A stretch of 64,000 bases of DNA from Mangrovibacterium diazotrophicum. Lineage in GTDB: Bacteria; Bacteroidota; Bacteroidia; Bacteroidales; Prolixibacteraceae. Each line of letters begins with the position of its first letter. Position 1 is the stretch's first letter. This document shows positions 47,775-64,000 of the stretch, piece by piece. Made by a program: the position numbers and the translations under genes. Under the pieces are notes generated by a model. That model was not told where the DNA came from. It did no database searches and saw nothing but the letters and a program-made list of their open reading frames with translations. The stretch is taken from NCBI RefSeq assembly GCF_003610535.1, contig NZ_RAPN01000001.1:2777320-2841319 (forward strand), in the 5' to 3' direction.

Positions 47775-48215
47775 TTATTTCTTAAAAAATGGTAAGACCA
47801 GGAAGGTGTAAATCGTACAACCGGCACAAAATGCAATGGCAAATTCCAGACTGGCGAAAACAACCAGAATACCGGCCACAATTTTTGACGCTGTTTGCAT
47901 ATCGGACGCAAATAGAACCGACAAAATCGCCACCATCAGAAATCCCATTCGGGCAGCAAAAATCTTTGGTGCTTTATCAATTTGTTTCGCAGGTAATTTC
48001 AATGCCAGTGTAATCCAGTAGGCCACGCAGCTTAAAGCACTAAAACGCATTTTGGTGAAAGCGCGAATTGCAAAATCAGCCGCTAGAAAAGCAAATACAA
48101 GCAACGACTGCAGCGAAAAACCAATAATTACCAATACGACCACCAGTAAAGAGGTAACACGCGGTACCTGCTCATTAATCCGTTCGGTGGAAATAGGACA
48201 AAAAATATTCTTCAT
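47775..48215 (-). CDS. DUF4395 family membrane protein
   Basis: 146 residues with a Cys-Pro start ('CPIS' at 6-9), 'INEQVPRVT', about four membrane segments and a final 'FCAGCTIYTFL'. This is the DUF4395 pattern: a conserved N-terminal Cys and a C-terminal CxxC-like pair facing the same membrane side, suggesting a metal or disulphide site. The family is often found near thioredoxin-like genes, which is not the case here. Function unknown. It is separated by 154 nt from the Gly-rich lipoprotein gene on the same strand. Confidence 0.78.
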   Translation of the reverse strand: MKNIFCPISTERINEQVPRVTSLLVVVLVIIGFSLQSLLVFAFLAADFAIRAFTKMRFSALSCVAYWITLALKLPAKQIDKAPKIFAARMGFLMVAILSVLFASDMQTASKIVAGILVVFASLEFAIAFCAGCTIYTFLVLPFFKK

Positions 48216-48366
48216 TCTTCTAAAAATTTAGCCGACAACGAATCACTCTTCATCCAGATGTGATTTTTGTCAGTATATTTTAACCCGCGAAGCCGAAATA
48301 GGTTTATGTTGGCGAAAAATTTGTTACTTCATCTTCGCAATCTTAACAGGACAAAAAAACCGACAA

Positions 48367-49656
48367 ATGAAATCTGCACCCCTTATCTTGTCCCTGCTTT
48401 TGCTGCTCATCCTGGCAAACCGGATAGCGGCTCAGGATCTGCTACAATTCATGCAGCAGAGGCCGGAGATCAAACAAATTGAAGAGATTTCAGGAAACCA
48501 CAGTTTCAAACACACCTACGAAATCAAAGTCAGGCAACCGCTGAACTACGCTGACACAACAGCTGGATTTTTTCTTCAGCGCGTGTTTGTTTCCGACAAG
48601 CAAGCGGAAAGTCCAACTGTTTTGATAACGGAAGGATACGACGCTGATTATGCTGCCGACCCCGCTTACATCAACGAGTTGACAGAGATTCTGAAAGCGA
48701 ACCAGATCTGCATAGAGCATCGTTACTTCGGAGAATCATACCCGGATTCGATTGTTTGGAAATACCTTACCGTTGAAAATGCCGCCAACGATGATCACCG
48801 AATTGTTGAACTATTTAAACCCTATTTTGAAGGAAAATGGTTGAACACCGGAATCAGCAAAGGCGGACAAACAGCCTTGGCGCACCGAACTTTTTTTCCC
48901 GACGATGTTTCCTTAACGGTGGCCTATGTCGCGCCCCTCAATTTTGGCGTTGAGGACGGCCGACACGAAGTCTTTCTAAAAACAGTTGGCACGCAGGCTG
49001 ATCGCGATTCAATACAAAACTTCCAGCTTGAAATTTTGAAACGGCGCGAATCAATGACGGTACTCTTAAAAGAATTATGCGAACAAAAAGGTTGGGACAG
49101 TAAACTATCCTACGACCAAATGCTCGATTTTATGGTGCTCGAATACTCGTTCGCCTTTTGGCAGTGGGGTTACCACATCTCGCAAATTCCGCCTTTAAAG
49201 AGCAACGATGAGGAGCTTTTCGCCCATTTCATAAAGGTGAGCGAACCCGGTTATTTCACCATCCAGGGATCAAAAAAATACCAGTCGTTTTTTTACCAGG
49301 CTGCGCGCGAGTTGGGCTATTACGGCTACGACACTGAGCCGTTCAAAGAATACCTGTCCATTTCAACCGCCAAAGGCTATTTAAACCGCTACATGCTTCC
49401 GGTGGATCATCCGGTTGAATACCAACCTGAGACTTCACTCCAAGTTGACAAATACCTGAAAAATGATGCACGAAATGTGCTGTTGATCTACGGCGAAACC
49501 GACCCCTGGTCGGCTAGTGCTGCCAAGCTGAACAACGATCCGTCGATGATTAAAATTATCGCTCCGAGTGGTTCTCACTCAACGCGAATTAAATCGTTGA
49601 GCCCCACAACAAAGAACGACGCCATCGCGTTCATTCGTTCAGTAATATTGAAATGA
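48367..49656 (+). CDS. Secreted S37 family (PS-10) serine peptidase
   Basis: 429 residues with a Sec signal (1-22, cleavage 'IAA-QD'). An alpha/beta-hydrolase catalytic triad is visible: Ser164 in 'TGISKGGQTA', Asp379 in 'GETDPWS' and His404 in 'SGSHSTR'. The 'GxSKGG' nucleophile elbow and the 'EHRYFGES' strand identify the S37 (PS-10) family of prolyl tri/tetrapeptidyl aminopeptidases, close to S28. It should trim proline-containing peptides outside the inner membrane. The next gene, a GH36-like protein, is on the same strand after 172 nt; no functional link is obvious. Family call is firm, exact specificity is not. Confidence 0.85.
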   Translation: MKSAPLILSLLLLLILANRIAAQDLLQFMQQRPEIKQIEEISGNHSFKHTYEIKVRQPLNYADTTAGFFLQRVFVSDKQAESPTVLITEGYDADYAADPAYINELTEILKANQICIEHRYFGESYPDSIVWKYLTVENAANDDHRIVELFKPYFEGKWLNTGISKGGQTALAHRTFFPDDVSLTVAYVAPLNFGVEDGRHEVFLKTVGTQADRDSIQNFQLEILKRRESMTVLLKELCEQKGWDSKLSYDQMLDFMVLEYSFAFWQWGYHISQIPPLKSNDEELFAHFIKVSEPGYFTIQGSKKYQSFFYQAARELGYYGYDTEPFKEYLSISTAKGYLNRYMLPVDHPVEYQPETSLQVDKYLKNDARNVLLIYGETDPWSASAAKLNNDPSMIKIIAPSGSHSTRIKSLSPTTKNDAIAFIRSVILK

Positions 49657-49828
49657 TTTTGCGACCATCGACAGGATTTTCGGGAATTGGCACCTTTTCT
49701 ATAACATGTCGTTAAACTGAAAGATAGCCACCTGTTTCATCGGTCTTCAGAGAACTTTTTAGCAAATTTGCCAGTCTGTTAAAAGTTGTTAAATTTACGA
49801 AACCAGAAACAAAAACTAAAACTACTTC

Positions 49829-51946
49829 ATGCCTTCAAAACGGATTGAAAGACGGAGCTTTATCAAACTGCTTGCCGCCGGAGTTGGCGCCAGCCTCATG
49901 CCAATCAGGTCGCTGGCCGATTTATCCGTAGCCTCTGAAGCTCCGGGCCCGGTCAAATTCAAACTCGGCAGATCGGAATGGATTCTCCACAACGATGGAA
50001 CCTTCGATCTCATCTCCGGGGCAATTCGGCTTCGCAATTGCCGCCCGACGATTGACGGACAAAGTATTTTCGTTCAGAACACCTTCATGGGCGACTCGCC
50101 CAAAGGAAAACGGATTATTTACGAACTTGCCGGGAATAGCTTTGTCATGCTGGACCTGAAAATTTTCAACGGTTCGGTTTCAATCGGCATCGAATTGAGC
50201 AACATGTCCCGCGCACCTTTTTACCTCGCGCCGCTGGGTGAAGCCCGAGTGGAAGGTGTCGACCGTTTCTTCAAACAAGGAATTGGTCAGGGTGGACCTT
50301 CCGGAATTTATGATATTCCGACGCCAACAGCCGAAGATTGGGGGAATACGGCTGGCGAACAGGCCTGGTCGTACGACTCGTACCTCACAACCGGCTTACT
50401 TTCGCCAGAAAACGAAACACTGGCATTTGCTGCTTACGATCATTACGATTTCACGCAGAAAAGCACCATTTATAACCGTCCTCACCGGAAAGGACTTTAC
50501 GACCGTTATCCGGATAAAGAAGAAATCTATTTTGAAACCGGATTCGTGATGGAGAATATTCCGTTGAAAAACGAATTCATCAAACTTCCTGATATCTATA
50601 TCGTCAAGGGGAACACCCCTTTCGACACACTGCAGCATATTGCCTGGAACATTTCGGAAAATATGGTGGCCCGCAAGGACACCAAAACAAGTTATCACTG
50701 GAACTCGTGGTACGAATACCAACAACATTTTTCGTTTGACCAGTTGAAAGAAGTTCTGCAGGGATTCGACGAACTTAAACCGAAAATCCCCTTGCAAACC
50801 ATCCAGATTGATGACTGCTACTGTGTTTTAGGCGACTGGCTGGAGACGAACGAACGATGGCCGAGAACCATGGAAGACGCTGCACGCGAGATCTTCCAGC
50901 GTGGCTACCGCGCCGGTATCTGGGTGGCTCCTTTCGTGGTTGATGAAAACAGCAAACTGTTTAAAAGTCACCCGAACTGGATCATCCGCGACCTCGACGG
51001 CGAACCGATTCTGCAGCACAATTTCCGGGAGAGTAATCTCTACGCACTCGACGGAAGTCACCCTGAAGTGCAAAAATACATTGCCCGGGTATTCCGCACA
51101 TTCCGTAAAATGGGCTTCACCTTTTACAAAACAGCCTACCTGGAATGGGGTTTAAAAGACAGTTACAACATTCGTCGTTATGACCGCGACAAAACTTCTG
51201 TTCAGATTCTAGTTGATGTGATGAAAATCATTCGCGAAGAAATCGGGGCCGGAGCTTACTGGATGGCCAGTAACGCGCCGTTTGCACCGCTAATCGGCTT
51301 TGTCGACGGCATGCGGATCTCTGCCAACGTTGACGCCGACTGGACGCCCGGCGGAATTGGTAACATGTTCCAGGAATCGTACAATTGCCAATATTTCAAC
51401 AATGTGTTCTGGCAAAACGACCCCGACACGATTTTCCTCCGCAATGTCAACAACAACATGAGTGACGCCGAAAACAGGAGCATTGCCCTTTGGGATGGAA
51501 TTTTAGGCGGAACGGTGAATACATCCGACAGGTTTTCAACCCTGACCGAAGCACAACTGGATCTGTGGCGCTTTTTGCAACCCCAGGATCGTCCACAAAG
51601 TGCGTTGATTCCGCTTTGGAGTTACGATGCTGTCGGGAAAGTAGCAGTACGACGCTACAAATCGGAAAAAGCCTGGGGAATATTGATTGTTAACGACACC
51701 GATGAAGCATTCGACAAAACCTACCGTATGGAGGACTTGACCGGCGAAAGCAAATGTTGGATCTTCCGTTGGGGCCCCGAAGAAAGCATGAGCCTCGGCC
51801 AAATGAGCGACATTCAAATCAAACTGGACTCGCATGAGTCGATATTGCTTTATGCCGCAGAGAACAACGATGCACCTGCCTCTGACCTTTCAATCAGCGG
51901 CGTTAAACTTGATAAATACCTGAAGAAGCACAACATGCTGGAATAA
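49829..51946 (+). CDS. Tat-exported GH36-like protein lacking both catalytic aspartates
   Basis: 705 residues. The start 'RIERRSFIKLLAAG' (twin Arg8-Arg9) is a Tat signal. An N-terminal beta-sandwich (about 40-280) and a TIM barrel (about 285-600) follow, with GH36/alpha-galactosidase landmarks 'WNSWYEY' (291-297), 'QIDDCY' (326-331), 'GIWVAPF' (363-369) and 'RISANVDADW' (496-505), then a C-terminal beta-domain. The nucleophile strand reads 'FYKTAYLEW' with Ala436 where the K-x-D motif has Asp, and the acid/base position of RIGxD is Asn500. So the usual double-displacement machinery is missing. Export of a folded protein by Tat fits a bound cofactor or metal, but I see no known site. Either a new mechanism or a binding protein. 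Confidence 0.75.
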   Translation: MPSKRIERRSFIKLLAAGVGASLMPIRSLADLSVASEAPGPVKFKLGRSEWILHNDGTFDLISGAIRLRNCRPTIDGQSIFVQNTFMGDSPKGKRIIYELAGNSFVMLDLKIFNGSVSIGIELSNMSRAPFYLAPLGEARVEGVDRFFKQGIGQGGPSGIYDIPTPTAEDWGNTAGEQAWSYDSYLTTGLLSPENETLAFAAYDHYDFTQKSTIYNRPHRKGLYDRYPDKEEIYFETGFVMENIPLKNEFIKLPDIYIVKGNTPFDTLQHIAWNISENMVARKDTKTSYHWNSWYEYQQHFSFDQLKEVLQGFDELKPKIPLQTIQIDDCYCVLGDWLETNERWPRTMEDAAREIFQRGYRAGIWVAPFVVDENSKLFKSHPNWIIRDLDGEPILQHNFRESNLYALDGSHPEVQKYIARVFRTFRKMGFTFYKTAYLEWGLKDSYNIRRYDRDKTSVQILVDVMKIIREEIGAGAYWMASNAPFAPLIGFVDGMRISANVDADWTPGGIGNMFQESYNCQYFNNVFWQNDPDTIFLRNVNNNMSDAENRSIALWDGILGGTVNTSDRFSTLTEAQLDLWRFLQPQDRPQSALIPLWSYDAVGKVAVRRYKSEKAWGILIVNDTDEAFDKTYRMEDLTGESKCWIFRWGPEESMSLGQMSDIQIKLDSHESILLYAAENNDAPASDLSISGVKLDKYLKKHNMLE

Positions 51947-52078
51947 ACCAACAGACACCAGCCTCCTGCACAAGCTTTATTTAAGATTTAATGAAGCTTG
52001 GCTTGCTGTGCCCTGCTCAAAACTTTCTGATTTGAAAACTTAAGCTTATTTTAGGGCTTCAAAATAAGACACAAGCAG

Positions 52079-52513
52079 ATGGATTTAAGCCTGTTGAACA
52101 CCAACATTCCGATTGACTTACTAAACGCCTCGATGACAAACAGTTTAATCAGTAGTCTGGGGATCGTTATTGAAGCTGTGAGCGAAGGAGAAGTGATCGC
52201 GAGCATGCCGGTTTCGGAGAAAACGATGCGCCCGGGAGGTATCCTGCACGGAGGTGCAAACCTTGCGCTGGCCGAAACCATTGCCGGATTGGGAAGCATC
52301 CTGCTTGTTGACAGTAAAGAATACGATGCCCGCGGAATACAGGTAACTGCCAATCATGTAGGCGCTGCCACCGAGGGACGTGTCCGGGCGACAGCAAAAA
52401 TCATTCACCAGGGAAAACAAACACACGTTTGGAATGTTGACATTACCAGAACCGACGGGAAATTAATCTCAACAGCCCGCGTGACCAATATGATAGTGAA
52501 GAAGAATGAGTAA
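52079..52513 (+). CDS. menI: Hotdog-fold thioesterase, probable DHNA-CoA thioesterase
   Basis: 144 residues of the PaaI/YdiI type: 'GGILHGGANLALAETIAG' carries His57 of the HGG motif and the catalytic Glu66. As the first gene of a menaquinone cluster it most likely hydrolyses 1,4-dihydroxy-2-naphthoyl-CoA made by MenB, giving the free acid for MenA. It overlaps menF by 8 nt. The gene symbol is a context-based assignment; the fold itself is clear. Confidence 0.82.
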   Translation: MDLSLLNTNIPIDLLNASMTNSLISSLGIVIEAVSEGEVIASMPVSEKTMRPGGILHGGANLALAETIAGLGSILLVDSKEYDARGIQVTANHVGAATEGRVRATAKIIHQGKQTHVWNVDITRTDGKLISTARVTNMIVKKNE

Positions 52514-53678
52514 GGGGAAATTTTACGAAGCATCTTTCGACCAACTAATAAAAAAGAACAGACCTTTTGCCGCCTGGTCAATGCCGGGAGAATCCACGCT
52601 TGAAGTACTTTTGGGCGAGCCTTCTGATATCCTGCTGTTGGAAGATTTCGACAAATTGAACGGACAGGAAGGTTTTGTCTTTGCCCCGTTTCGAATCGAC
52701 GAACATTCACCACTGATTTTAATGAAACCGGGTGTTTATCTGAAAGATGAAAAAGCCTTCAAAGCATTCGATATCGAAGCACTTCCTTCGTTGGAATGCA
52801 AGGCTCCAGCTCCCCGAGATTTCTACATTATTACCGAAGAAAACTACCTGAAAGATATTACGGAAACGGTTCGCGTTATTCAAACCACCAAATTATCGAA
52901 GGTGATTGTTTCGCGCATTATTCCGGCTAAACGCGGAAGCGAATCGATTGGCGAATTGTACATGCAATTGCTCCGGCAAACACCCAATGCCTTGGTTTAC
53001 CTCGTCTATCTTCCGGGCGCTGGACTTTGGATGGGTGCTACCCCTGAAGTTCTTTTGCAATCGAAAGGAAAAACGCTGGAAACCGTTTCGCTGGCCGGCA
53101 CACAAACCCGACGCGACGACTCGGATTACCGATGGCATACCAAGGAAATTGAGGAACAGGCCTTTGTTTCGCGTTACATGCTCGACGTTTTTTACAAATT
53201 CAATATTCACCCTTACACCACACAAGGACCGGAAACATTGGAAAGCGGAAAGGTGGCTCACCTGAAAACCAGTTTCAATTTTTCGGCCAAAAAAGTGGAA
53301 GATAAATTGGGTGATTTTGTCGCACAACTGCATCCAACACCGGCCGTTTGCGGCTTACCCAAATCGAAAGCACAACGTTTCATTTCGACCATCGAAAAAC
53401 ACCAGCGCCGCTATTACACCGGCTACCTTGGTCCGTGGCGAATGAACGATTGCATCAGATTATTTGTAAATTTGCGTTGCATGGAAATTACCGCCGACAA
53501 CTACATGCTGTATTCGGGAGGCGGAATTACCGCGCGCTCCGTTCCCGCCGAGGAATGGGACGAAACATTGAAAAAAGCAACAACGCTATTATCAGCCATC
53601 GAGCTTGTTCAAACTAATGATTTCAACAAAGAAACACATTCAACAGCTGGCCTCTTTACTGCTGGCCAAAGGAATTGA
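52506..53678 (+). CDS. menF: Isochorismate synthase
   Basis: 390 residues with a chorismate-binding domain at the C-terminus: 'TVRVIQTTKLSKVIVSR' opens it, then 'ATPEVLLQS', 'LAGTQTRRD', 'EIEEQAFVSRYM', 'HLKTSFNFSAK', 'HPTPAVCGLPK' and 'YTGYLGPW' follow in the order of the family. It converts chorismate to isochorismate, the entry step of the menaquinone pathway. Overlaps menI by 8 nt and menD by 62 nt, so the three are translationally linked. Confidence 0.92.
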   Translation: MSKGKFYEASFDQLIKKNRPFAAWSMPGESTLEVLLGEPSDILLLEDFDKLNGQEGFVFAPFRIDEHSPLILMKPGVYLKDEKAFKAFDIEALPSLECKAPAPRDFYIITEENYLKDITETVRVIQTTKLSKVIVSRIIPAKRGSESIGELYMQLLRQTPNALVYLVYLPGAGLWMGATPEVLLQSKGKTLETVSLAGTQTRRDDSDYRWHTKEIEEQAFVSRYMLDVFYKFNIHPYTTQGPETLESGKVAHLKTSFNFSAKKVEDKLGDFVAQLHPTPAVCGLPKSKAQRFISTIEKHQRRYYTGYLGPWRMNDCIRLFVNLRCMEITADNYMLYSGGGITARSVPAEEWDETLKKATTLLSAIELVQTNDFNKETHSTAGLFTAGQRN

Positions 53679-55299
53679 CGATATCATCATCTCTCCCGGA
53701 TCGCGCAACGGCCCGATGACACACACCTTTGCGGGATCGGGACTGTTTAATTCCCGCAACATTGTCGACGAACGCAGTGCCGCCTATTTTGCGATGGGTT
53801 TGGCGCAGGCCAAGCAAAAGCCGGTAGCGATAGTTTGCAGCTCGGGTACCGCAACGTTGAATTATGCGCCTGCTATTGCCGAAGCTTTTTACCTCAATAT
53901 TCCGCTGATTGTGCTTACTGCCGACCGTCCGGATTACTGGATTGATCAGGCCGAAAGCCAATGCATCCGGCAAGAAGGAATCTACAGGAACTTTACCAAA
54001 AAGGAAATTAGCCTGCCTTTGGCCGAAAGCGAAAAGGAACTGTGGTTTGCCGCCCGCGAAATTAACGCTTGCCTCAACCTGGCCGTTTCGGGAACGCCCG
54101 CACCGGTTCATATAAATATTCCGCTGGAAGAGCCCTTGCACGATTTACTGGACACACCCCTTCCACCAGTGAAGGTGATTGAAGAGGAAGAAACCATTTC
54201 TGCGTTGAGCGCCTCCGCCATTCAGAAACTGGCTGGAAGTTTCAACCAAAGCCCAAAAGTGATGATCTTGGCAGGTCAACAAGTACCCAACCCGGGATTG
54301 GAAAACCTGCTGGCAGAGATCGTTGAAAAAACGGGAGCCGTGGTTCTGAAAGAACACCTTTCCAATCTGAATGATCCGCAGTTTTGCGGAAGCATTGATA
54401 CTGTTTTAGCAGCAATGCTCGAAGATGTACCGGAACATTTTCAACCGGATTTGCTGATTTCATTCGGAGGCCAATATGTATCGAAAGCATTGAAACAGTT
54501 TCTGCGGAAGAACAAAGCGAGCCAACACTGGCATTTGAGTTTGTCGCACGAGCACTTCGACACCTACCAGTCGCTGACAAAAGTGATTGCGATGGATGCT
54601 GTGGACTTCTTCGAGGCACTTCAACCCGAATTACAAGAAAAAGACAAAGACTACCATCAACTTTGGAAGACGAAAGAAGCGAAGGTTAACCAGTTGCGTG
54701 ATCAATATATTTCGGAAACGGAATGGTCGGACCTGACCGTTTTTGAACAGATTCGAAAAGCAATTCCCGAGAACTCCGTGGTTCATTTGGGAAACAGCTC
54801 CCCCGTTCGCTACGGGCTGATTTGCGAGGCTGTTCCTAACACGCAATATTTCAGCAACCGCGGAACAGCGGGCATTGACGGACCGATGTCGACTGCCGTT
54901 GGATTTGCACATGAATCGGAAAAACTGAACACGATTATTTTAGGTGATTTGTCGTTCTTCTACGACTCCAATGCTTTATGGAACAATTATGTGGGAAGTA
55001 ACTTCCGCGTAATCGTCATCAATAACCGGGGCGGCAACATTTTTAGCCTGATCAAAGGGCCGGGCGAGTCACCTGCTTTCCAGGAACATTTTTTCACCGA
55101 AAATAAATTCAAAGCAGAAGGCATTGCCAAAACATTCGGACTGGATTATTTCAAAGCTGAAAACACCGACGAATTAGAAGATGCGCTGGCTGATTTCTAT
55201 TCCTCAGAACAACAAGGCCCCGCTTTGCTCGAAATATTTACCGATGCGGAAGTCAATACGAAAACCTTCCGCGGATTATTCAAATTTGTCAAACAATAA
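53617..55299 (+). CDS. menD: SEPHCHC synthase (2-succinyl-5-enolpyruvyl-6-hydroxy-3-cyclohexene-1-carboxylate synthase)
   Basis: 560 residues, a thiamine-diphosphate enzyme. '[11 protein letters not shown]' near the N-terminus and '[17 protein letters not shown]' belong to the Pyr domain; '[16 protein letters not shown]' and '[14 protein letters not shown]' are the PP-domain motif with the Mg-binding Asp and Asn. It joins 2-oxoglutarate to isochorismate. I use the ATG at 53617, which still overlaps menF by 62 nt; an in-frame TTG four codons earlier is less likely. It precedes menB by 10 nt. Confidence 0.95.
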
Positions 55300-55309
55300 A
55301 CACGATACA

Positions 55310-56134
55310 ATGAGTACTAAAAGACAATGGGAAACCATTAAAGAATACGAAGATATTTTCTTCGACTATTACGATGGGATTGGCAAAATCACCATCAACC
55401 GCGAACAGGTGCGCAACGCTTTCCGCCCAACAACGGTGAACAACATCAGCGATGCACTGCACATTTGCCGCGAGGATAACAACATCAATGTGATTGTGCT
55501 GACCGGTGCCGGCGACAAAGCATTCTGTTCGGGTGGCGACCAAAACGTGAAAGGCACGGGCGGTTACATCGACGAGAACGGTATTCCCCGTCTGAACATC
55601 CTGGAAGTGCAGAAACAAATCCGCAGCATGCCGAAACCGGTGATTGCAATGGTGAACGGCTATGCCATTGGCGGTGGACACGTGTTGCACGTGGTTTGCG
55701 ATATCAGTATCGCCAGCGAGAACGCCATCTTCGGACAAACCGGACCGAAAGTAGGTAGCTTCGACGCCGGATTGGGATCATCATACCTGGCCAGCGTTGT
55801 GGGACAAAAGAAAGCCCGCGAAATCTGGTTCATGTGCCGACAATATAACGCTGCCGAAGCACTGGAAATGGGCTTGGTAAACAAAGTTGTTCCATTGGAT
55901 CAGCTGGAAGACGAAGTGGTTGCCTGGGCACAAAAAATGCAGGAACACAGTCCGCTGGCTCTGCGTATGCTGAAACTCGGCATGAACGCTGACCTCGATG
56001 GTCAAATCGGAATCCAAGAGTTTGCGGGAAATGCTACCCTGCTGTACTACCTGACCGAAGAAGCACAGGAAGGAAAGCACGCATTCCTGGAAAAACGCAA
56101 ACCCGACTTCAAAAAATATCCGAAGTTTCCTTAA
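55310..56134 (+). CDS. menB: 1,4-Dihydroxy-2-naphthoyl-CoA synthase
   Basis: 274 residues of the crotonase fold. The oxyanion-hole blocks '[10 protein letters not shown]' and '[14 protein letters not shown]' and the family's '[17 protein letters not shown]' are present. It closes the second naphthoquinone ring on succinylbenzoyl-CoA. The open frame reaches upstream into menD, but the ATG at 55310 gives the normal start '[10 protein letters not shown]'. It begins 10 nt after menD and ends just before a dispersed repeat that separates it from menA. Confidence 0.96.
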
Positions 56135-56140
56135 TTAGCA

Positions 56141-56216
56141 CAACCACAGAGGACACAGAGTTCCCGGAGATTGATTTCTTGCGATGAAACTTCTCTCTGA
56201 ACTTTGTGTTCTTGGC
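56141..56216. repeat. CACAGAG-type dispersed repeat forming an imperfect hairpin
   Basis: CCACAGAGGACACAGAGTTC at one end and GAACTTTGTGTTCTTGG at the other pair imperfectly. It fills half of the 154-nt menB-menA gap. The sequence resembles repeats seen between genes in many Bacteroidota. Confidence 0.5.
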
Positions 56217-56288
56217 AATATCAATTCATAATCCCCGGTATTCGGCTGGTTGTAATCAGTAACAAGAAACCGGCAACCAACAACAAGT

Positions 56289-57197
56289 ATGGCAACACCT
56301 AAAAGTTGGATCAATGCAGCACGGCTGCGCACTTTACCGCTGGCTTTGTCGGGCATTGTAATGGGCTCGGCACTGGCTGCCTTTTACGGGGCTTTCGACC
56401 TCACCGTTTTCATTTTGGCCGTAGTGACGGCAACACTGATTCAGGTTTTTTCGAACTTTGCCAACGACTACGGTGATTTTCAAAAGGGAACCGACAATCA
56501 TCAACGCCTGGGACCAACGCGGACCATGCAGGGCGGAGAAATCACGCCGTCGGAAATGAAAAAGGGAATGATCGTCGTTGGCGGGCTGAGTTTCATTTTA
56601 GGTATTGCCCTGGTTTACACCGGAACCTGGACATTTTGCAAGATTGCCTTTTTCGGCTTCATCGGCTTAGGTATACTGGCACTACTGGCTGCCTACTTTT
56701 ACACAGCCGGTAAAAAGTCGTACGGATACATTGGGCTGGGCGACCTGTCGGTGTTTCTGTTTTTTGGCCTGTTGCCGGTGATCGGCGTTTTCTTTTTGCA
56801 CAGCAATTTCTTCGAAAATGCCATCATTCTTCCGGCCATCAGCATGGGATTTTTTAGCGCCGGTGTATTGAACCTGAATAACATGCGAGACATCCAGAAC
56901 GACCAGCAGTCGGGGAAGATCACCATGGCCGTAAAGATGGGAAGCCGCAACAGCCGCATCTACCACATTGCCATCATTGCGTGGGGATGGATTGCGGCCA
57001 TCGTCTTCACCCTGCACCAACAGGAATCGGCCTGGCAATGGTTGTTCCTGCTGACTTTACCGCTCTTCCTGATGGATTTGATCAAGATATACAACACCAA
57101 AGAGGATCGGTTACTCGATCCATTCCTGAAACGCCTGGCTCTGGGAACGCTGGCATTCACGCTGCTGTTCTCGCTCGGACTAATTTTATCGTTTTGA
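56289..57197 (+). CDS. menA: 1,4-Dihydroxy-2-naphthoate polyprenyltransferase
   Basis: 302 residues with about nine membrane helices, UbiA superfamily. The first Asp-rich motif 'NDYGDFQKGTDN' (59-70) and a second motif 'NNMRDIQNDQQSGK' that bind Mg-diphosphate are intact. It attaches the polyprenyl chain to dihydroxynaphthoate in the inner membrane, using a product such as that of the polyprenyl synthase gene at 30128. Separated from menB by the dispersed repeat and from menC by 79 nt. Confidence 0.95.
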   Translation: MATPKSWINAARLRTLPLALSGIVMGSALAAFYGAFDLTVFILAVVTATLIQVFSNFANDYGDFQKGTDNHQRLGPTRTMQGGEITPSEMKKGMIVVGGLSFILGIALVYTGTWTFCKIAFFGFIGLGILALLAAYFYTAGKKSYGYIGLGDLSVFLFFGLLPVIGVFFLHSNFFENAIILPAISMGFFSAGVLNLNNMRDIQNDQQSGKITMAVKMGSRNSRIYHIAIIAWGWIAAIVFTLHQQESAWQWLFLLTLPLFLMDLIKIYNTKEDRLLDPFLKRLALGTLAFTLLFSLGLILSF

Positions 57198-57276
57198 TCG
57201 AAAATATATCGTCGTTTATTTTAACTTGACAGCGTAGTCTAGTTGTCTTGAATCTGAAAATCCAATAATCTTTCTA

Positions 57277-58302
57277 ATGATTGGTTATTTCAAAAAATAC
57301 GAGCTCGAATTTAAACAGCCCGCCGGTACTTCGCGCGGGGTGTTGAAGACGCGCACCGTTTGGTATTTGTACGTTGAAGAGAATGGGCGAACCGGCCTGG
57401 GCGAATGTGCCCCACTTCCCGGACTGAGCAAGGAAACACCCGAGCAAATTGACTACCTGATTGAAGATGTCTGCTCGGACCCGATGCACTTTTTCGAGAA
57501 CGAGGAACTGCTGCTCGACTACCCGTCGCTGCGCTTTGCCTTAGAAACGGCTTTGCTCGACCTGCAAAACGGAGGCAAGCGCATTCTCTACCCCTCAGCA
57601 TTTACGGAAGGAACAGCCGGAATTCCGATCAACGGATTGATTTGGATGGGCGAAGCGGACCAGATGCAACAACAAATTGAGGCGAAGCTGGCTGCCGGTT
57701 TTCGCTGCATCAAACTAAAGATTGGTGCCCTGGATTTTGCGAAAGAGCTGCATCTGCTAAAATCTATCAGGGAGCGCTTCAGCCCCGAAAAAATTACGCT
57801 TCGAGTTGATGCCAATGGTGGCTTTAAGGTTGATGAGGCCTGGCAAAAGCTCGAACAGCTGGCAGAACTTCAACTACACTCGATTGAGCAACCGATTATT
57901 GCCGGACGCTGGGCCGACATGGCCAAGCTGTGCGACGAAACTCCCCTGCCAATTGCGCTGGACGAAGAGCTGATTGGCCTCAACAAACGCGACGATAAAG
58001 AATTGTTGCTGGATATGGTGCGTCCGCAATACCTGATTCTGAAGCCGAGCTTGCACGGCGGACTGTCGGGTTGCGACGAGTGGATTGAGCTGGCCAACGA
58101 CCGGAACATTGGTTGGTGGATTACCTCGTACCTGGAGTCGAACATTGGGCTAAACGCCATTGCACAGTGGGCTTTTACGAAAAATGTGCACATGCACCAG
58201 GGCCTCGGAACCGGGCAGCTGTTTACCAACAACATTGAGTCGCCGCTGGAAATCCGGGGCGAGCAGTTGTGGTTTGACCCCGCGAAGGGATTTGGACTGT
58301 AG
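57277..58302 (+). CDS. menC: o-Succinylbenzoate synthase
   Basis: 341 residues, enolase superfamily. The catalytic pattern is complete: Lys146 and Lys148 in 'IKLKIG', metal ligands Asp178 ('RVDANGGF'), Glu204 ('IEQPI') and Asp229 ('ALDEEL'), and Lys256 ('LILKPSLHGG'). It dehydrates SHCHC to o-succinylbenzoate. No menH (SHCHC synthase) gene is in the cluster. Note that the window has a second enolase-superfamily gene, the dipeptide epimerase at 43918, which is distinguished by its KTK motif and position. Confidence 0.93.
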   Translation: MIGYFKKYELEFKQPAGTSRGVLKTRTVWYLYVEENGRTGLGECAPLPGLSKETPEQIDYLIEDVCSDPMHFFENEELLLDYPSLRFALETALLDLQNGGKRILYPSAFTEGTAGIPINGLIWMGEADQMQQQIEAKLAAGFRCIKLKIGALDFAKELHLLKSIRERFSPEKITLRVDANGGFKVDEAWQKLEQLAELQLHSIEQPIIAGRWADMAKLCDETPLPIALDEELIGLNKRDDKELLLDMVRPQYLILKPSLHGGLSGCDEWIELANDRNIGWWITSYLESNIGLNAIAQWAFTKNVHMHQGLGTGQLFTNNIESPLEIRGEQLWFDPAKGFGL

Positions 58303-60354: not shown

Positions 60355-63300
60355 CTACTTCTTCCAGAAGAAAGCCACGGCAATTACAGCGATCAGCGCC
60401 AGCAACAGGTAGCGGTAAAACTCGGGCGTAGCCAATGGTTTGGAATTGTCGGCCTGCGTTTTCGACACCTCTTCCACCTGGTAGCCTTTCACAGTACTCT
60501 TCGGAAGGTAGCTTTGATCCGGGTTGGCTTGGTCCTGCGCCAGGTTGGCATTTTCGGGCATTTGCTGCTGCGAGAGATCAACTTTTTTGATCGTCTTCAA
60601 CGCTTCCCGGTAAACCTGCAGGTCGGCTGTAGTCAGTCCGGGCACTTTTTCCAGTTCCTGACCGATGTAATCAGCCAGTTTGGGGTTGTCGCACACATTT
60701 TCGTTGCACGAAAGTCCCGCCTGTTTCACCGTCTCGTTAAAGGCTTTCAGCATCGTCTGCATCTGCTTTTCATCGGCATGCCAGTAGTCCTTCCGCGTTA
60801 CCTCCATCATTTGCGAGAGCAGCACCTGGTAGGCATACACGTTCTCGGGCTGCATAAATTTGCGCTTCAAATCGAGCTGGTATTTGTCTTCCACATAGGT
60901 ATCGTACACGCGGTTCCACTTGCCTTCGTCAATCGCTTCGGGCGTGGTCACCTGCCAGCCCCAGAGATTGGTCACCATCATGCGGACAAAACGCGAGCCG
61001 GCATAGCCCTCGTCCATCATGGCATTAATCCACTCGGGGTTCAGGTAGCGGGTCTGCATTTCGCGGCCAATAAACTGGTCGAGGCTTTCCTGACGCATGT
61101 TTCCCTTTTGGGTGAGGTTCGAAATCATCACATCGGGCGTTTGCCCGTCCAGAGCGCGAACAGTCAGCGCCGTTCCACCCAGGTATTGGAAGAAGTCGTC
61201 GTTGTCGAGCGCGCCGTACAAATGGGAGGTGCGGCTGTGCAACACGGCTTTCGATCCCGAGAGGTTCTGAGCCAGCAGGTCTTTCAACACCTTGTCGGTC
61301 ACCTTCGGGTTGCTCACCGAACCCCAATAGTCCTCGCCATAGGGAAAATGCATGCGTTTCATGTACAGCTGTGCCACCTCGCGGTCGCTCTCCCACTGCC
61401 CCGAAGCCTCAATCATGGTATTTGTGCCCGTGCCGTAAGCGCCTTCGGGCGTGGTAAACATGCGCACCAACGCCAGTTTTTCGGCTTCGGCTTTGCCCAC
61501 ACCGGCCTCAACCAGCTTTTGCCGGGCGGCCTCGGTGTGCAGGCGAATGTAGTTGTCCACCTCGTTCTGCTTGGCTGCCAGCTTCACCGCTTTGTCGAGC
61601 AGCTTCATCAGCGTTGGGAAAATATCGCGGTACAGGCCCGACGGTACCATCACTACATCCACGCGGGCACGTCCCAGCACCCGGCGCGGAATGATTTCCA
61701 CATCCACCACCTTGCCATAGCCGTCGTATTTGGGTCGAACTCCGAGCAGGTACATGATCTGCGCTTCCATAATTCCTTCGTTGCGGATACATTCCGTCGA
61801 CCACAGGTTGAAGGTCACCTTGTCCGGAAACTGACCGTCGTGTTTCACGTTATAGTCTGAAATGAAATCTTTCGCCAGCTGCGTTCCGGCTTTATAAACT
61901 GACTCCGACGGAAGGTGCGACGGGTCGAAGGCGTAAAAGTTTTTCCCCGTTGGAAGGGCATCAGGGTTGCGGATGGGGTCGTTCCCCGATCCCGCTTCAA
62001 TGTATTGGCCGTTCAGGGCAGCTATCAGGGCGTCCAACTCGGCTTTTCCGGTTGCCTGCAGTTTCTGGCGAATGTTGTTCAGCCAGTCCTCTTTGGCTTT
62101 TCCGCTCAGGTGGTCCTGTTGCGAAGCAATCGCTTTGGCCGTTTCTTCCAGGTACTTCGGAGCCGGGCTCTCGCCAAAGGAGTGCAGCCCCATCGGGCTT
62201 TCCTGCTCCAGAATTTCTTCCACGTAATGCTCCAGCAGCTGAAAATCTTTCTCTTCCTTAATTTCCGTCAAGCCCAAATCCTTCAGCACGCCCGCCGCTT
62301 TGGCTTTCTCGTTAATAGCGGCCAGCTTGGCTTGCGACAGCAGCTTACTCTTCGACTCAGCCACTTCGTACTCCGACATCAGCCGCGCAAGTTCTTTCAC
62401 CTCGGGGTTAAGTTGAAGGCGGGTAAACGGCGGCGTCATGTGGGTCAGGATGATGGCGCCGCTCCGTCGTTTGGCCTGCAGCCCTTCACCCACATCATCC
62501 ATAATGTAGGGGTAAATGTTGACCATGTGCCCGATCAGCGCCTCCGAAACATCCGATTCGCTCAGCCCTGTTTCCTTACCCGGCAGCCATTCCAGCGTAC
62601 TGTGCGTTCCGATGTGCACCACCGCGTCTGCATGAAAGCTGTGCTGCAAATACAGGTAGAAGGCCAGGTACTGGTGGTGAGGCGGCAGCGTAATATCGTG
62701 GTGCATCACATCAATGCCCTGCGTCCACCCGCGAACAGGTTGCGGCATCAGCAACACGTTTCCGCAGGGAACAGCCGGCAGCACAAAGAAGCGTTCCTTT
62801 TTGCTGTTCTCCCAGGTCATGATCGAGGTCGTATCGGGCAAGCCCCAGTGGTGTTCCACTTCGGCAACCAGCTTGGGCGAAAGTTCACTCAGCCATTTTT
62901 TGTAGAGGCTGATGGGCACCAACACGGCTTTGCCCGATTGGGCCAGCTTGGCCGTTTCGGCAGGCGCCCAGTCGCCCACATTGCGCCCGTGTTCCATCAC
63001 CTGCTTGTAAATATTGTCTTCGCGAATATCCATTCCGCCCAAATCGTAACCTTCGGTCTGCATCCGGTTCAGCATGTTGTGCAAACTTTGCGGCATCACG
63101 TTCAGGTAGCTCGCTCCCAGCGATTCCTTGCCCGGCGGGTGACTGTAGTAAATCAGCGCGACCCGTTTTTTGCTGTTGGGTTTGGTTTGAAGCAGGTGAA
63201 AGGCCTTCACCCGATCCACGAAGCGTTTCAACTGCCGTTGGGCCGGCACTTTTTCCTGTGCCCCGGTGGCCGGGTCAAAATCCTTCACCGAAGTCACGAT

Positions 63301-64000
63301 GGGCTGAATCATCCCCGATTGCTCCGGAATGCTGAGCGCGTTCGTCCGTTTATACAGGGCGATACCGGTTTCACTGTCTTCCCAGGCTTCCAGCGTATCA
63401 TTTACCTGCACCAGGTTGATGACCGGAACATTCAGCTCTTTGAATGTCTCGCGCTGCAAATCGGGGTTCACGCCCAACCACGACGACATGCCGGCAACTA
63501 CTGAAAGCAATGGCTTTCCATCCTGGCGGAAAAAGTAGGTTTTCAACTCGTCCAACGGAACCTGACCGAAATACGGCAATACATTGAAACCGGCCTCTTC
63601 CAGCTTTTGAATGTGGCTGTTCACCGACTCCATCTGCTCCGACAGGATATCGCTGCGCCAGATGTTGAGCCCCACCCAGGGGTTGCCCGCTTCCTGCGTC
63701 CGGCGATGAGCCTGGTAGTCAGCAAGTGTGCTGTAAAACTGACCATCTTCCGTGTTGTATAAACCATATTCAGGAATTTGCAGCACCTGTTGCTTTGCCA
63801 CCGGGTAGGCCAGGTCGGTTCGCAGCTTTTCGAGCACCATGCGCTTCAGGTTCTCCCTTCCCGACTGGCTGTAGAAATCCAGCACCTGCGCATCGTAGTT
63901 TAGCTGCACGCCCTCGGGGCTGTCGGCGAGTTTATCTGCACCGACAGCGTAGATTTTCGCACCATGCCGGCTTGCCTGTTTAAGCTCTTTCACCGCCTGG
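60355..64000 (-). CDS. CobN-like chelatase with C-terminal membrane anchor, N-terminus beyond window
   Basis: At least 1214 residues are visible; the frame stays open to the right edge (the GTG at 63993 is internal). The sequence carries CobN landmarks: 'ALIYYSHPPGKESLGASYLN', 'AVVHIGTHSTLEWLPGKE' with the His-containing loop, 'NIYPYIMDDVGEGLQAKRRS' and 'WSTECIRNEGIMEAQI'. CobN inserts cobalt into hydrogenobyrinate with CobS and CobT. Here the C-terminus has a Gln/Pro-rich linker and ends in one membrane helix 'YRYLLLALIAVIAVAFFWKK', which cytosolic CobN lacks. The HmuS protein of Bacteroides, a CobN homologue acting on haem, is a likely relative. No CobS/CobT gene is in view. GC-richer than most neighbours. 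Confidence 0.85.
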   Translation of the reverse strand, partial: QAVKELKQASRHGAKIYAVGADKLADSPEGVQLNYDAQVLDFYSQSGRENLKRMVLEKLRTDLAYPVAKQQVLQIPEYGLYNTEDGQFYSTLADYQAHRRTQEAGNPWVGLNIWRSDILSEQMESVNSHIQKLEEAGFNVLPYFGQVPLDELKTYFFRQDGKPLLSVVAGMSSWLGVNPDLQRETFKELNVPVINLVQVNDTLEAWEDSETGIALYKRTNALSIPEQSGMIQPIVTSVKDFDPATGAQEKVPAQRQLKRFVDRVKAFHLLQTKPNSKKRVALIYYSHPPGKESLGASYLNVMPQSLHNMLNRMQTEGYDLGGMDIREDNIYKQVMEHGRNVGDWAPAETAKLAQSGKAVLVPISLYKKWLSELSPKLVAEVEHHWGLPDTTSIMTWENSKKERFFVLPAVPCGNVLLMPQPVRGWTQGIDVMHHDITLPPHHQYLAFYLYLQHSFHADAVVHIGTHSTLEWLPGKETGLSESDVSEALIGHMVNIYPYIMDDVGEGLQAKRRSGAIILTHMTPPFTRLQLNPEVKELARLMSEYEVAESKSKLLSQAKLAAINEKAKAAGVLKDLGLTEIKEEKDFQLLEHYVEEILEQESPMGLHSFGESPAPKYLEETAKAIASQQDHLSGKAKEDWLNNIRQKLQATGKAELDALIAALNGQYIEAGSGNDPIRNPDALPTGKNFYAFDPSHLPSESVYKAGTQLAKDFISDYNVKHDGQFPDKVTFNLWSTECIRNEGIMEAQIMYLLGVRPKYDGYGKVVDVEIIPRRVLGRARVDVVMVPSGLYRDIFPTLMKLLDKAVKLAAKQNEVDNYIRLHTEAARQKLVEAGVGKAEAEKLALVRMFTTPEGAYGTGTNTMIEASGQWESDREVAQLYMKRMHFPYGEDYWGSVSNPKVTDKVLKDLLAQNLSGSKAVLHSRTSHLYGALDNDDFFQYLGGTALTVRALDGQTPDVMISNLTQKGNMRQESLDQFIGREMQTRYLNPEWINAMMDEGYAGSRFVRMMVTNLWGWQVTTPEAIDEGKWNRVYDTYVEDKYQLDLKRKFMQPENVYAYQVLLSQMMEVTRKDYWHADEKQMQTMLKAFNETVKQAGLSCNENVCDNPKLADYIGQELEKVPGLTTADLQVYREALKTIKKVDLSQQQMPENANLAQDQANPDQSYLPKSTVKGYQVEEVSKTQADNSKPLATPEFYRYLLLALIAVIAVAFFWKK

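Follow-up and report, generated by a model that had tools for sequence, protein, structure and literature searches.

The window analysed here, a stretch of 64,000 nucleotides from Mangrovibacterium diazotrophicum, encodes a 705-residue protein that belongs to the TmGalA branch of GH36 and in which both catalytic aspartates are replaced. The same two replacements are present in four genomes of the genus, the other galactose contacts of the pocket are kept and catalytic residues were lost repeatedly elsewhere in the family. We consider it reasonably likely that the Mangrovibacterium protein is an exported galactoside-binding pseudoenzyme, one of several that arose in parallel in a GH36 side-branch, which had probably already gained a second function. 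The features of the locus are listed in Table 1.

Table 1. Features of the GH36-like locus (positions in the window)
Feature	Position	Strand	Basis
GH36-like (TmGalA branch) putative exported pseudoenzyme, 705 aa	49829..51946	+	frame, Pfam, phmmer, Foldseek, family profile
Twin-arginine signal region, residues 1-30 (ERRSFIKL at residues 7-14)	49829..49918	+	conserved RR; signal end by eye
Crown-specific, nearly invariant hairpin, residues 84-99 (NTFMGDSPKGKRIIYE)	50078..50125	+	12/16 columns in at least 36/37 crown rows
TIM barrel, about residues 285-570	50681..51538	+	phmmer alignment, AlphaFold2 model, Foldseek
Asp328-Asp329, equivalents of TmGalA Asp220/Asp221, kept	50810..50815	+	phmmer alignment, orthologue rows
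Lys434, equivalent of TmGalA Lys325, kept	51128..51130	+	phmmer alignment, orthologue rows
Ala436 (GCC) at the catalytic nucleophile position (TmGalA Asp327)	51134..51136	+	phmmer, same-genus rows, family profile
Arg496, equivalent of TmGalA Arg383, kept	51314..51316	+	phmmer alignment, orthologue rows
Asn500 (AAC) at the acid/base position (TmGalA Asp387)	51326..51328	+	phmmer, same-genus rows, family profile
Peptidase S37 (PS-10 type), recurrent upstream neighbour	48367..49656	+	Pfam PF05576
4HBT thioesterase, first gene of the downstream menaquinone-type cluster; neighbour, no working role claimed	52079..52513	+	

A GH36 protein without the catalytic aspartates

The frame starts with ATG. 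Its 705 codons are translated without an internal stop, in line with the intact frame of the first-pass annotation. The protein scored 54.5 bits against the Pfam Melibiase model PF02065 (cut-off 27), the best stretch covering only residues 331-424. A phmmer search against the PDB gave TmGalA of Thermotoga maritima (1zy9) as the best sequence match, with residues 249-572 aligned at 4e-39. Four alignments were examined, one with TtGalA and three with different chain entries of TmGalA, among them an engineered mutant; the ferritin matches (E 0.12 and up) were dismissed as chance. The AlphaFold2 model of the protein (pLDDT 76, pTM 0.79) was then compared with known structures using Foldseek. TmGalA was the top match (E about 1e-33, TM-score on target 0.78-0.80), ranks 1-38 were α-galactosidases or the F. 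plautii galactosaminidase, part of which we take to be GH36 members, and the first GH31 protein appeared at rank 39. The N-terminal β-sandwich, (β/α)8 barrel and C-terminal sheet of the GH36 architecture were all found in the predicted structure. The profile search and structure prediction that the first-pass annotation had proposed as checks thus both point to GH36.

The catalytic positions were read from the phmmer alignment, in the 1zy9 numbering minus 12 leading residues, counted by hand. The KIDFL motif of TmGalA lies on KTAYL of the window protein, placing Ala436 at the position of Asp327, which PMC6089974 gives as the TmGalA nucleophile; RIGPD lies on RISAN, placing Asn500 at the position of Asp387. 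Neither the nucleophile aspartate of K-x-D nor the acid/base aspartate of R-x-x-x-D that mark GH36 is therefore present. The alignment with TtGalA and a profile of 18 orthologues gave an identical register at both positions, and a register shift restoring the aspartates was rejected, as TmGalA, TtGalA and the family profile are concordant. The Ala/Asn pair was also found in L032, L033 and L034, other assemblies with the same genus code; it is thus common to all four same-genus rows, which excludes a sequencing error or a slipped register as its source. This group of four, hereafter Mangrovibacterium, consists of the window genome and the matches to M. lignilyticum (86% identity), M. marinum (about 80%) and the metagenome-assembled genome Sunxiuqinia sp. 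SZUA-417. The initial reading of both substitutions is confirmed, and these close homologues share them.

Loss of the catalytic pair across the family

The GH36-like gene occurs as a single copy in the window genome, the only other match being a distant GH36 over 93 residues. The profile search detected the family, the window genome included, at E≤1e-60 and always as a single copy in 38 of the 140 Prolixibacteraceae-level genomes, in 9/393 genomes of the order sample at E≤1e-30 and in 2/395 of the phylum sample at E≤1e-50. The crown clade comprises 37 rows from 37 of the 38 family genomes, after L003, L004, L005 and other duplicates from the same genomes had been dropped. L029 (poorly aligned; both aspartates kept, different at Y191, D220 and D221) and L097 (ending before the catalytic sites) were kept out of counts and trees. 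For the second tree and the topology tests, L041, L054, L056, L068 and L093 were thinned as near-identical and L095, L096, L074-L077 and L014 were also left out; L098 was used only there and in the pocket strings.

The galactose contacts of TmGalA listed in PMC5132143 are Asp220, Asp221, Trp257, Lys325, Arg383, Tyr191 and Trp190, besides Asp387. Ten pocket positions were written as a string in the order W190, Y191, D220, D221, W257, K325, D327, C368, R383, D387 (TmGalA numbers). Six of the ten non-crown full-length rows read WYDDWKDCRD and the other four vary at Y191 and/or D221 only, while D220, K325, D327, R383 and D387 are all present, and the cysteine is invariant, in all nine non-crown rows of the conservation table. 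The four Mangrovibacterium rows read WYDDWKASRN. Hence, apart from the catalytic residues, seven of the seven −1 subsite contacts in the set taken from PMC5132143 are kept in the window protein. The sister row L085, which is 70% identical to it, reads WYDDWKDSRD, so that the nucleophile and the acid/base are the only differences between the two among the ten positions. The equivalent of C368 is Ser in the window protein and is replaced in 37/37 crown rows.

Both aspartates are present in 19 of the 37 crown rows, neither in 13, and only the acid/base is gone in 5; thus, 18 rows lack one or both. The first-pass annotation had held that homologues with both aspartates would make this copy simply dead. 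Such homologues do exist, as the 19 rows show, but that reading does not follow from them, and the window gene does not appear to be decaying. D220, K325, D327, R383 and D387 occur together in four crown rows only (L085, L051, L086 and L079), and pocket positions in the crown are less conserved than other GH36-invariant columns (8 vs 34 columns, p 3e-4). The remnants differ between lineages. Six of the seven g21 (Sunxiuqinia) rows combine Asp or Glu at the nucleophile position with Ser at the acid/base position and Asn in place of D220, whereas L051, the seventh, has all three equivalents intact. Sunxiuqinia rows with the acid/base Ser and an Asp/Glu nucleophile (e.g., L038:8001-10106 and L039:8001-10094) look as if only the acid/base were dispensable. 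The 14 g18 rows hold both aspartates in a common rebuilt pocket, with GP or GS for DD, Glu for Lys, Tyr for Trp257 and Asn for Cys; such rows (e.g., L092:9039-11129 and L087:8579-10669) probably encode an active enzyme of new specificity. L080, L081, L082, L083, L089 and L090 have lost both aspartates and most or much of the pocket, while the scaffold, the hairpin described below and the twin-arginine start are all retained.

With the catalytic or pocket columns excluded from the trees, the intact/lost state changed at least five times, which is a minimum. A tree constrained to unite the 17 lost rows of the thinned set as a single clade was rejected (p-AU 2e-32), as was one that joined Mangrovibacterium with the g21 lost rows (p-AU 3e-16); a single ancestral loss of the catalytic aspartates is thereby rejected, for constrained groups that were named after the first tree had been seen. 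The direction is read as loss and not regain because all nine non-crown rows of the conservation table are intact. The window protein stands beside L085 with 100/100 support; the branches flagged as long are those of the deep rows, L037 and L088/L089, and not its own. As L085 has both aspartates and the same gene neighbourhood as the window gene, the pair disappeared from a single-copy gene that stayed where it was. The independent losses among the relatives suggest that the protein is kept for something other than cutting.

Export signal, N-terminal hairpin and gene neighbourhood

Arg-Arg is present at the start of 37/37 crown orthologues and TatC is encoded in the window genome. The NCBIfam Tat-signal model scored 13.7 bits, below its cut-off of 16.7; therefore, the case for Tat export rests on the conserved motif and not on the profile score, and the strong twin-arginine signal of the first-pass annotation stands to that extent. 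Its further step, from Tat export to a cofactor as in NAD-dependent glycosidases, was rejected. Twin-arginine starts are also found on the Asp/Asp-intact L094 and L084 and on the more distant L077, and the predicted fold is that of plain α-galactosidases. The cofactor-binding domain of NAD-dependent glycosidases is a Rossmann fold; no cofactor-binding domain was found in the window protein among Pfam or NCBIfam matches at E up to 1. Of the two things proposed for a check, a pocket or a cofactor site, only the pocket was thus found.

Residues 84-99 follow the consensus N.F.GDSPKG.RI.YE. Only scattered letters of this block are seen in the four deep rows, and it is present in the four crown rows with an intact pocket (L085, L051, L086 and L079), with two changes in L051. 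In the AlphaFold2 model, it forms strands 84-90 and 93-100 within the N-terminal sandwich. Judged by its conservation, the hairpin may be a new functional site that predates the catalytic losses.

In 13/13 genomes where the GH36-like gene occurs together with an S37 protein of ≥45% identity, the S37 gene lies directly upstream; this cut-off was picked after the table had been seen. In three of these loci (L080, L081 and L088), the wider surroundings differ. The other 25 of the 38 genomes carrying the GH36-like gene have no S37 protein of at least 45% identity, and the upstream gene is a different one in several lineages. S37 proteins were found at E≤1e-50 in 100/140 genomes, 75 of them without the GH36-like gene at E≤1e-60, which weakens S37 as an obligate partner. 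Downstream, in 16/16 loci examined in the 28-row clade of the window, the gene is followed by 4HBT or directly by menF (L037), men gene names being assigned by eye. The locus of L095, an Asp/Asp-intact deep relative (Bacteroidales, L095:74-19899), holds GH106, GH29, GH97, GH2 and a Bac_rhamnosid6H rhamnosidase, and that of the deep relative L084 holds GH28, a β-helix and a 3-keto-disaccharide hydrolase domain. Since these relatives lie among glycan-degrading genes, the ancestral enzyme probably served in complex-glycan breakdown, a setting from which most of the crown has departed. SusC-like genes (named by eye) are still found upstream in L079-L083.

Comparison of window positions 47775-58302 with L034 (M. 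marinum) gave an identity of 64% for DUF4395 and S37, 79% for the GH36-like gene and then 85-100% for 4HBT, menF, menD, menB and menC; M. lignilyticum has no such jump. The M. marinum comparison looks as though the men cluster had been transferred or had recombined, the breakpoint falling immediately downstream of the GH36-like gene. A sigma-70 scan for operon promoters turned up 10 sites, where shuffled sequences averaged 6.7, and these sites were rejected; the Bacteroidota promoter motif had no match in three intergenic stretches. A 1212-residue frame on the minus strand (60355-63993) resembles, by eye, a CobN/BchH-type chelatase subunit.

Proposed role and known systems

We propose that an α-galactosidase-like GH36 enzyme from the TmGalA branch took on a second, non-catalytic role in the stem lineage of a Prolixibacteraceae clade, which would be visible as the new, nearly invariant N-terminal hairpin. 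Catalysis would then have become dispensable and been lost several times. In Mangrovibacterium, where Ala436 and Asn500 leave the other −1 contacts in place, the pocket should hold a galactose-type sugar uncut. The protein is probably exported folded via Tat and would act in the periplasm, possibly jointly with the S37 peptidase encoded just upstream. As sugar contacts are also gone in other lineages (e.g., L082 and L083), sugar binding is not the shared role of the whole clade. In its full form, this proposal is plausible, though we hold it tentatively: a single-copy GH36 side-branch would have gained a function through the new N-terminal site, and at least five lineages would then have taken the active site apart independently, each with a different remnant. 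In Mangrovibacterium this would be a galactose lectin, in Sunxiuqinia a pocket lacking the acid/base and in L080-L083 a bare scaffold, while in g18 the pocket would have been rebuilt round the kept aspartate pair.

The constraint on the gene was assessed by full-length dN/dS in 15 pairs. The dS was finite in seven pairs and in none of the other eight; the finite pairs gave dN/dS 0.028-0.072, every one with a broken or remodelled pocket. They include three pairs with a lost aspartate, i.e., L041-L040 (Glu/Ser, 0.049), L035-L039 (Asp/Ser, 0.030) and L080-L081 (Ala/Thr, 0.059), and four g18 pairs (0.028-0.072, one with dS 2.4). In four within-genus pairs and two with L085, dS was saturated and gave no full-length dN/dS; the dN of the Mangrovibacterium pairs was 0.07-0.12. 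We consider it very improbable that the gene is a relic on its way to a pseudogene, with its function gone and its frame intact by chance. Intact homologues exist and dN/dS within the genus is not computable, as such a relic would allow, and the root-to-tip distance from the L085 split to Mangrovibacterium is about 2.5-fold that to L085 (0.36 vs 0.14), which could reflect relaxation. However, open frames of 705-706 residues with the same aspartate losses are found in four same-genus genomes. The GH36-like protein is 86% identical to that of M. lignilyticum, as against 67% for S37, 80% for 4HBT and 81% for menF and menD, and is thus about as conserved as menF and 4HBT; in two congeners, the values are 86 and 79% vs 67 and 64% for S37. 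Its distance to three outgroups is only about 15% above that of L085, S37 and menF being also faster, menD slower and menC the other way or mixed. Taken with the dN/dS of 0.03-0.06 in the three lost-aspartate pairs elsewhere in the clade, this bears out the well-kept scaffold of the first-pass annotation. The window protein accordingly has the marks of a pseudoenzyme, i.e., an enzyme fold with the catalytic residues lost and kept by selection, the selection argument within the genus being one of conservation because dS is saturated.

It is improbable that the protein is an active glycosidase whose mechanism is displaced or substrate-assisted and relies on a different carboxylate or on a nucleophile from outside. 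The conserved pocket would suit such a mechanism, and the acidic Glu439 and Asp502, which the first-pass annotation had offered as the basis of a new catalytic type, adjoin both sites in the window protein. Yet position 439 holds E, S, G or D among the 37 crown rows (E, S, G and G in the four same-genus rows) and position 502 holds ten different residues (E in one same-genus row), so both were rejected as new catalytic acids, being conserved in neither crown nor genus. The barrel acids D336, D408, D493 and E516 are kept in at least 36/37 crown rows; they are also present in all or most Asp/Asp-intact deep rows and, therefore, none looks like a replacement. The main rival, itself unlikely, is that the pocket is irrelevant in the clade and that the protein is a scaffold or partner, e.g., of the S37 peptidase or an envelope structure, acting through the hairpin, the Mangrovibacterium pocket being kept because its erosion is recent. 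The near invariance of residues 84-99 in 37 rows while the pocket erodes in varied ways, the eroded rows L080-L083, L089 and L090 with their retained hairpin, and the S37 gene next door in every genome with both genes agree with it. Against it, no change is seen in any of the four same-genus rows at the seven contacts other than the catalytic pair and the cysteine, with tree distances to the window protein of 0.17-0.30, and the S37 association fails in the 25 genomes and the lineages noted above. With the aspartate pair gone in 4/4, seven contacts kept and the scaffold conserved, the glycan-binding pseudoenzyme, which the first-pass annotation had given as one of two options, is the better-supported half.

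On its Melibiase match, the window protein would be annotated as an α-galactosidase. The family is a graded series (intact, remodelled, catalytically emptied and fully eroded) of single-copy orthologues in one bacterial family, which makes it testable how a glycosidase becomes non-cutting and whether a new function precedes the loss of the old one. If binding is true, the Mangrovibacterium form would be a ready-made natural galactoside binder; if the side-branch reading is true, the clade would offer natural replicates of a pseudoenzyme arising with no gene duplication involved.

Klotho, heparanase 2 and CHI3L1 are glycoside hydrolase pseudoenzymes. Like the beetle GH28 polygalacturonases, they keep the GH fold, have lost catalysis and serve another role; all of these belong to other families and to animals, whereas the window protein is a single-copy bacterial orthologue. 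PMC6549527 links pseudoenzymes to gene duplication. Glycoside hydrolase pseudoenzymes are already known in other families, and the parallel loss in single-copy orthologues is the unusual part; no report of a GH36 pseudoenzyme family or of the window protein was found in the open-licence papers searched.

The closest known system is TmGalA (PDB 1zy9, 5m0x), the best match in both sequence and fold, whose W190, Y191, D220, D221, W257, K325 and R383 have equivalents in the window protein. The latter differs in having Ala for D327, Asn for D387 and Ser for C368, a twin-arginine start and the crown-specific N-terminal hairpin. Crystals of TmGalA D387A hold intact carbasugars (PMC6089974), those of AtAkalphaGal3 D383A hold galactose, galactinol, raffinose and stachyose (PMC9912918), and GH36 single-Asp mutants keep slow activity, so that a residual activity of the window protein is conceivable. 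Both mutants have an active-site aspartate removed and the pocket kept, as in the window protein. They are laboratory single mutants, whereas in the window protein both positions were replaced naturally and the replacements are common to four genomes of the genus; by this analogy, the Mangrovibacterium protein looks like a natural double version of the single Asp-to-Ala GH36 mutants.
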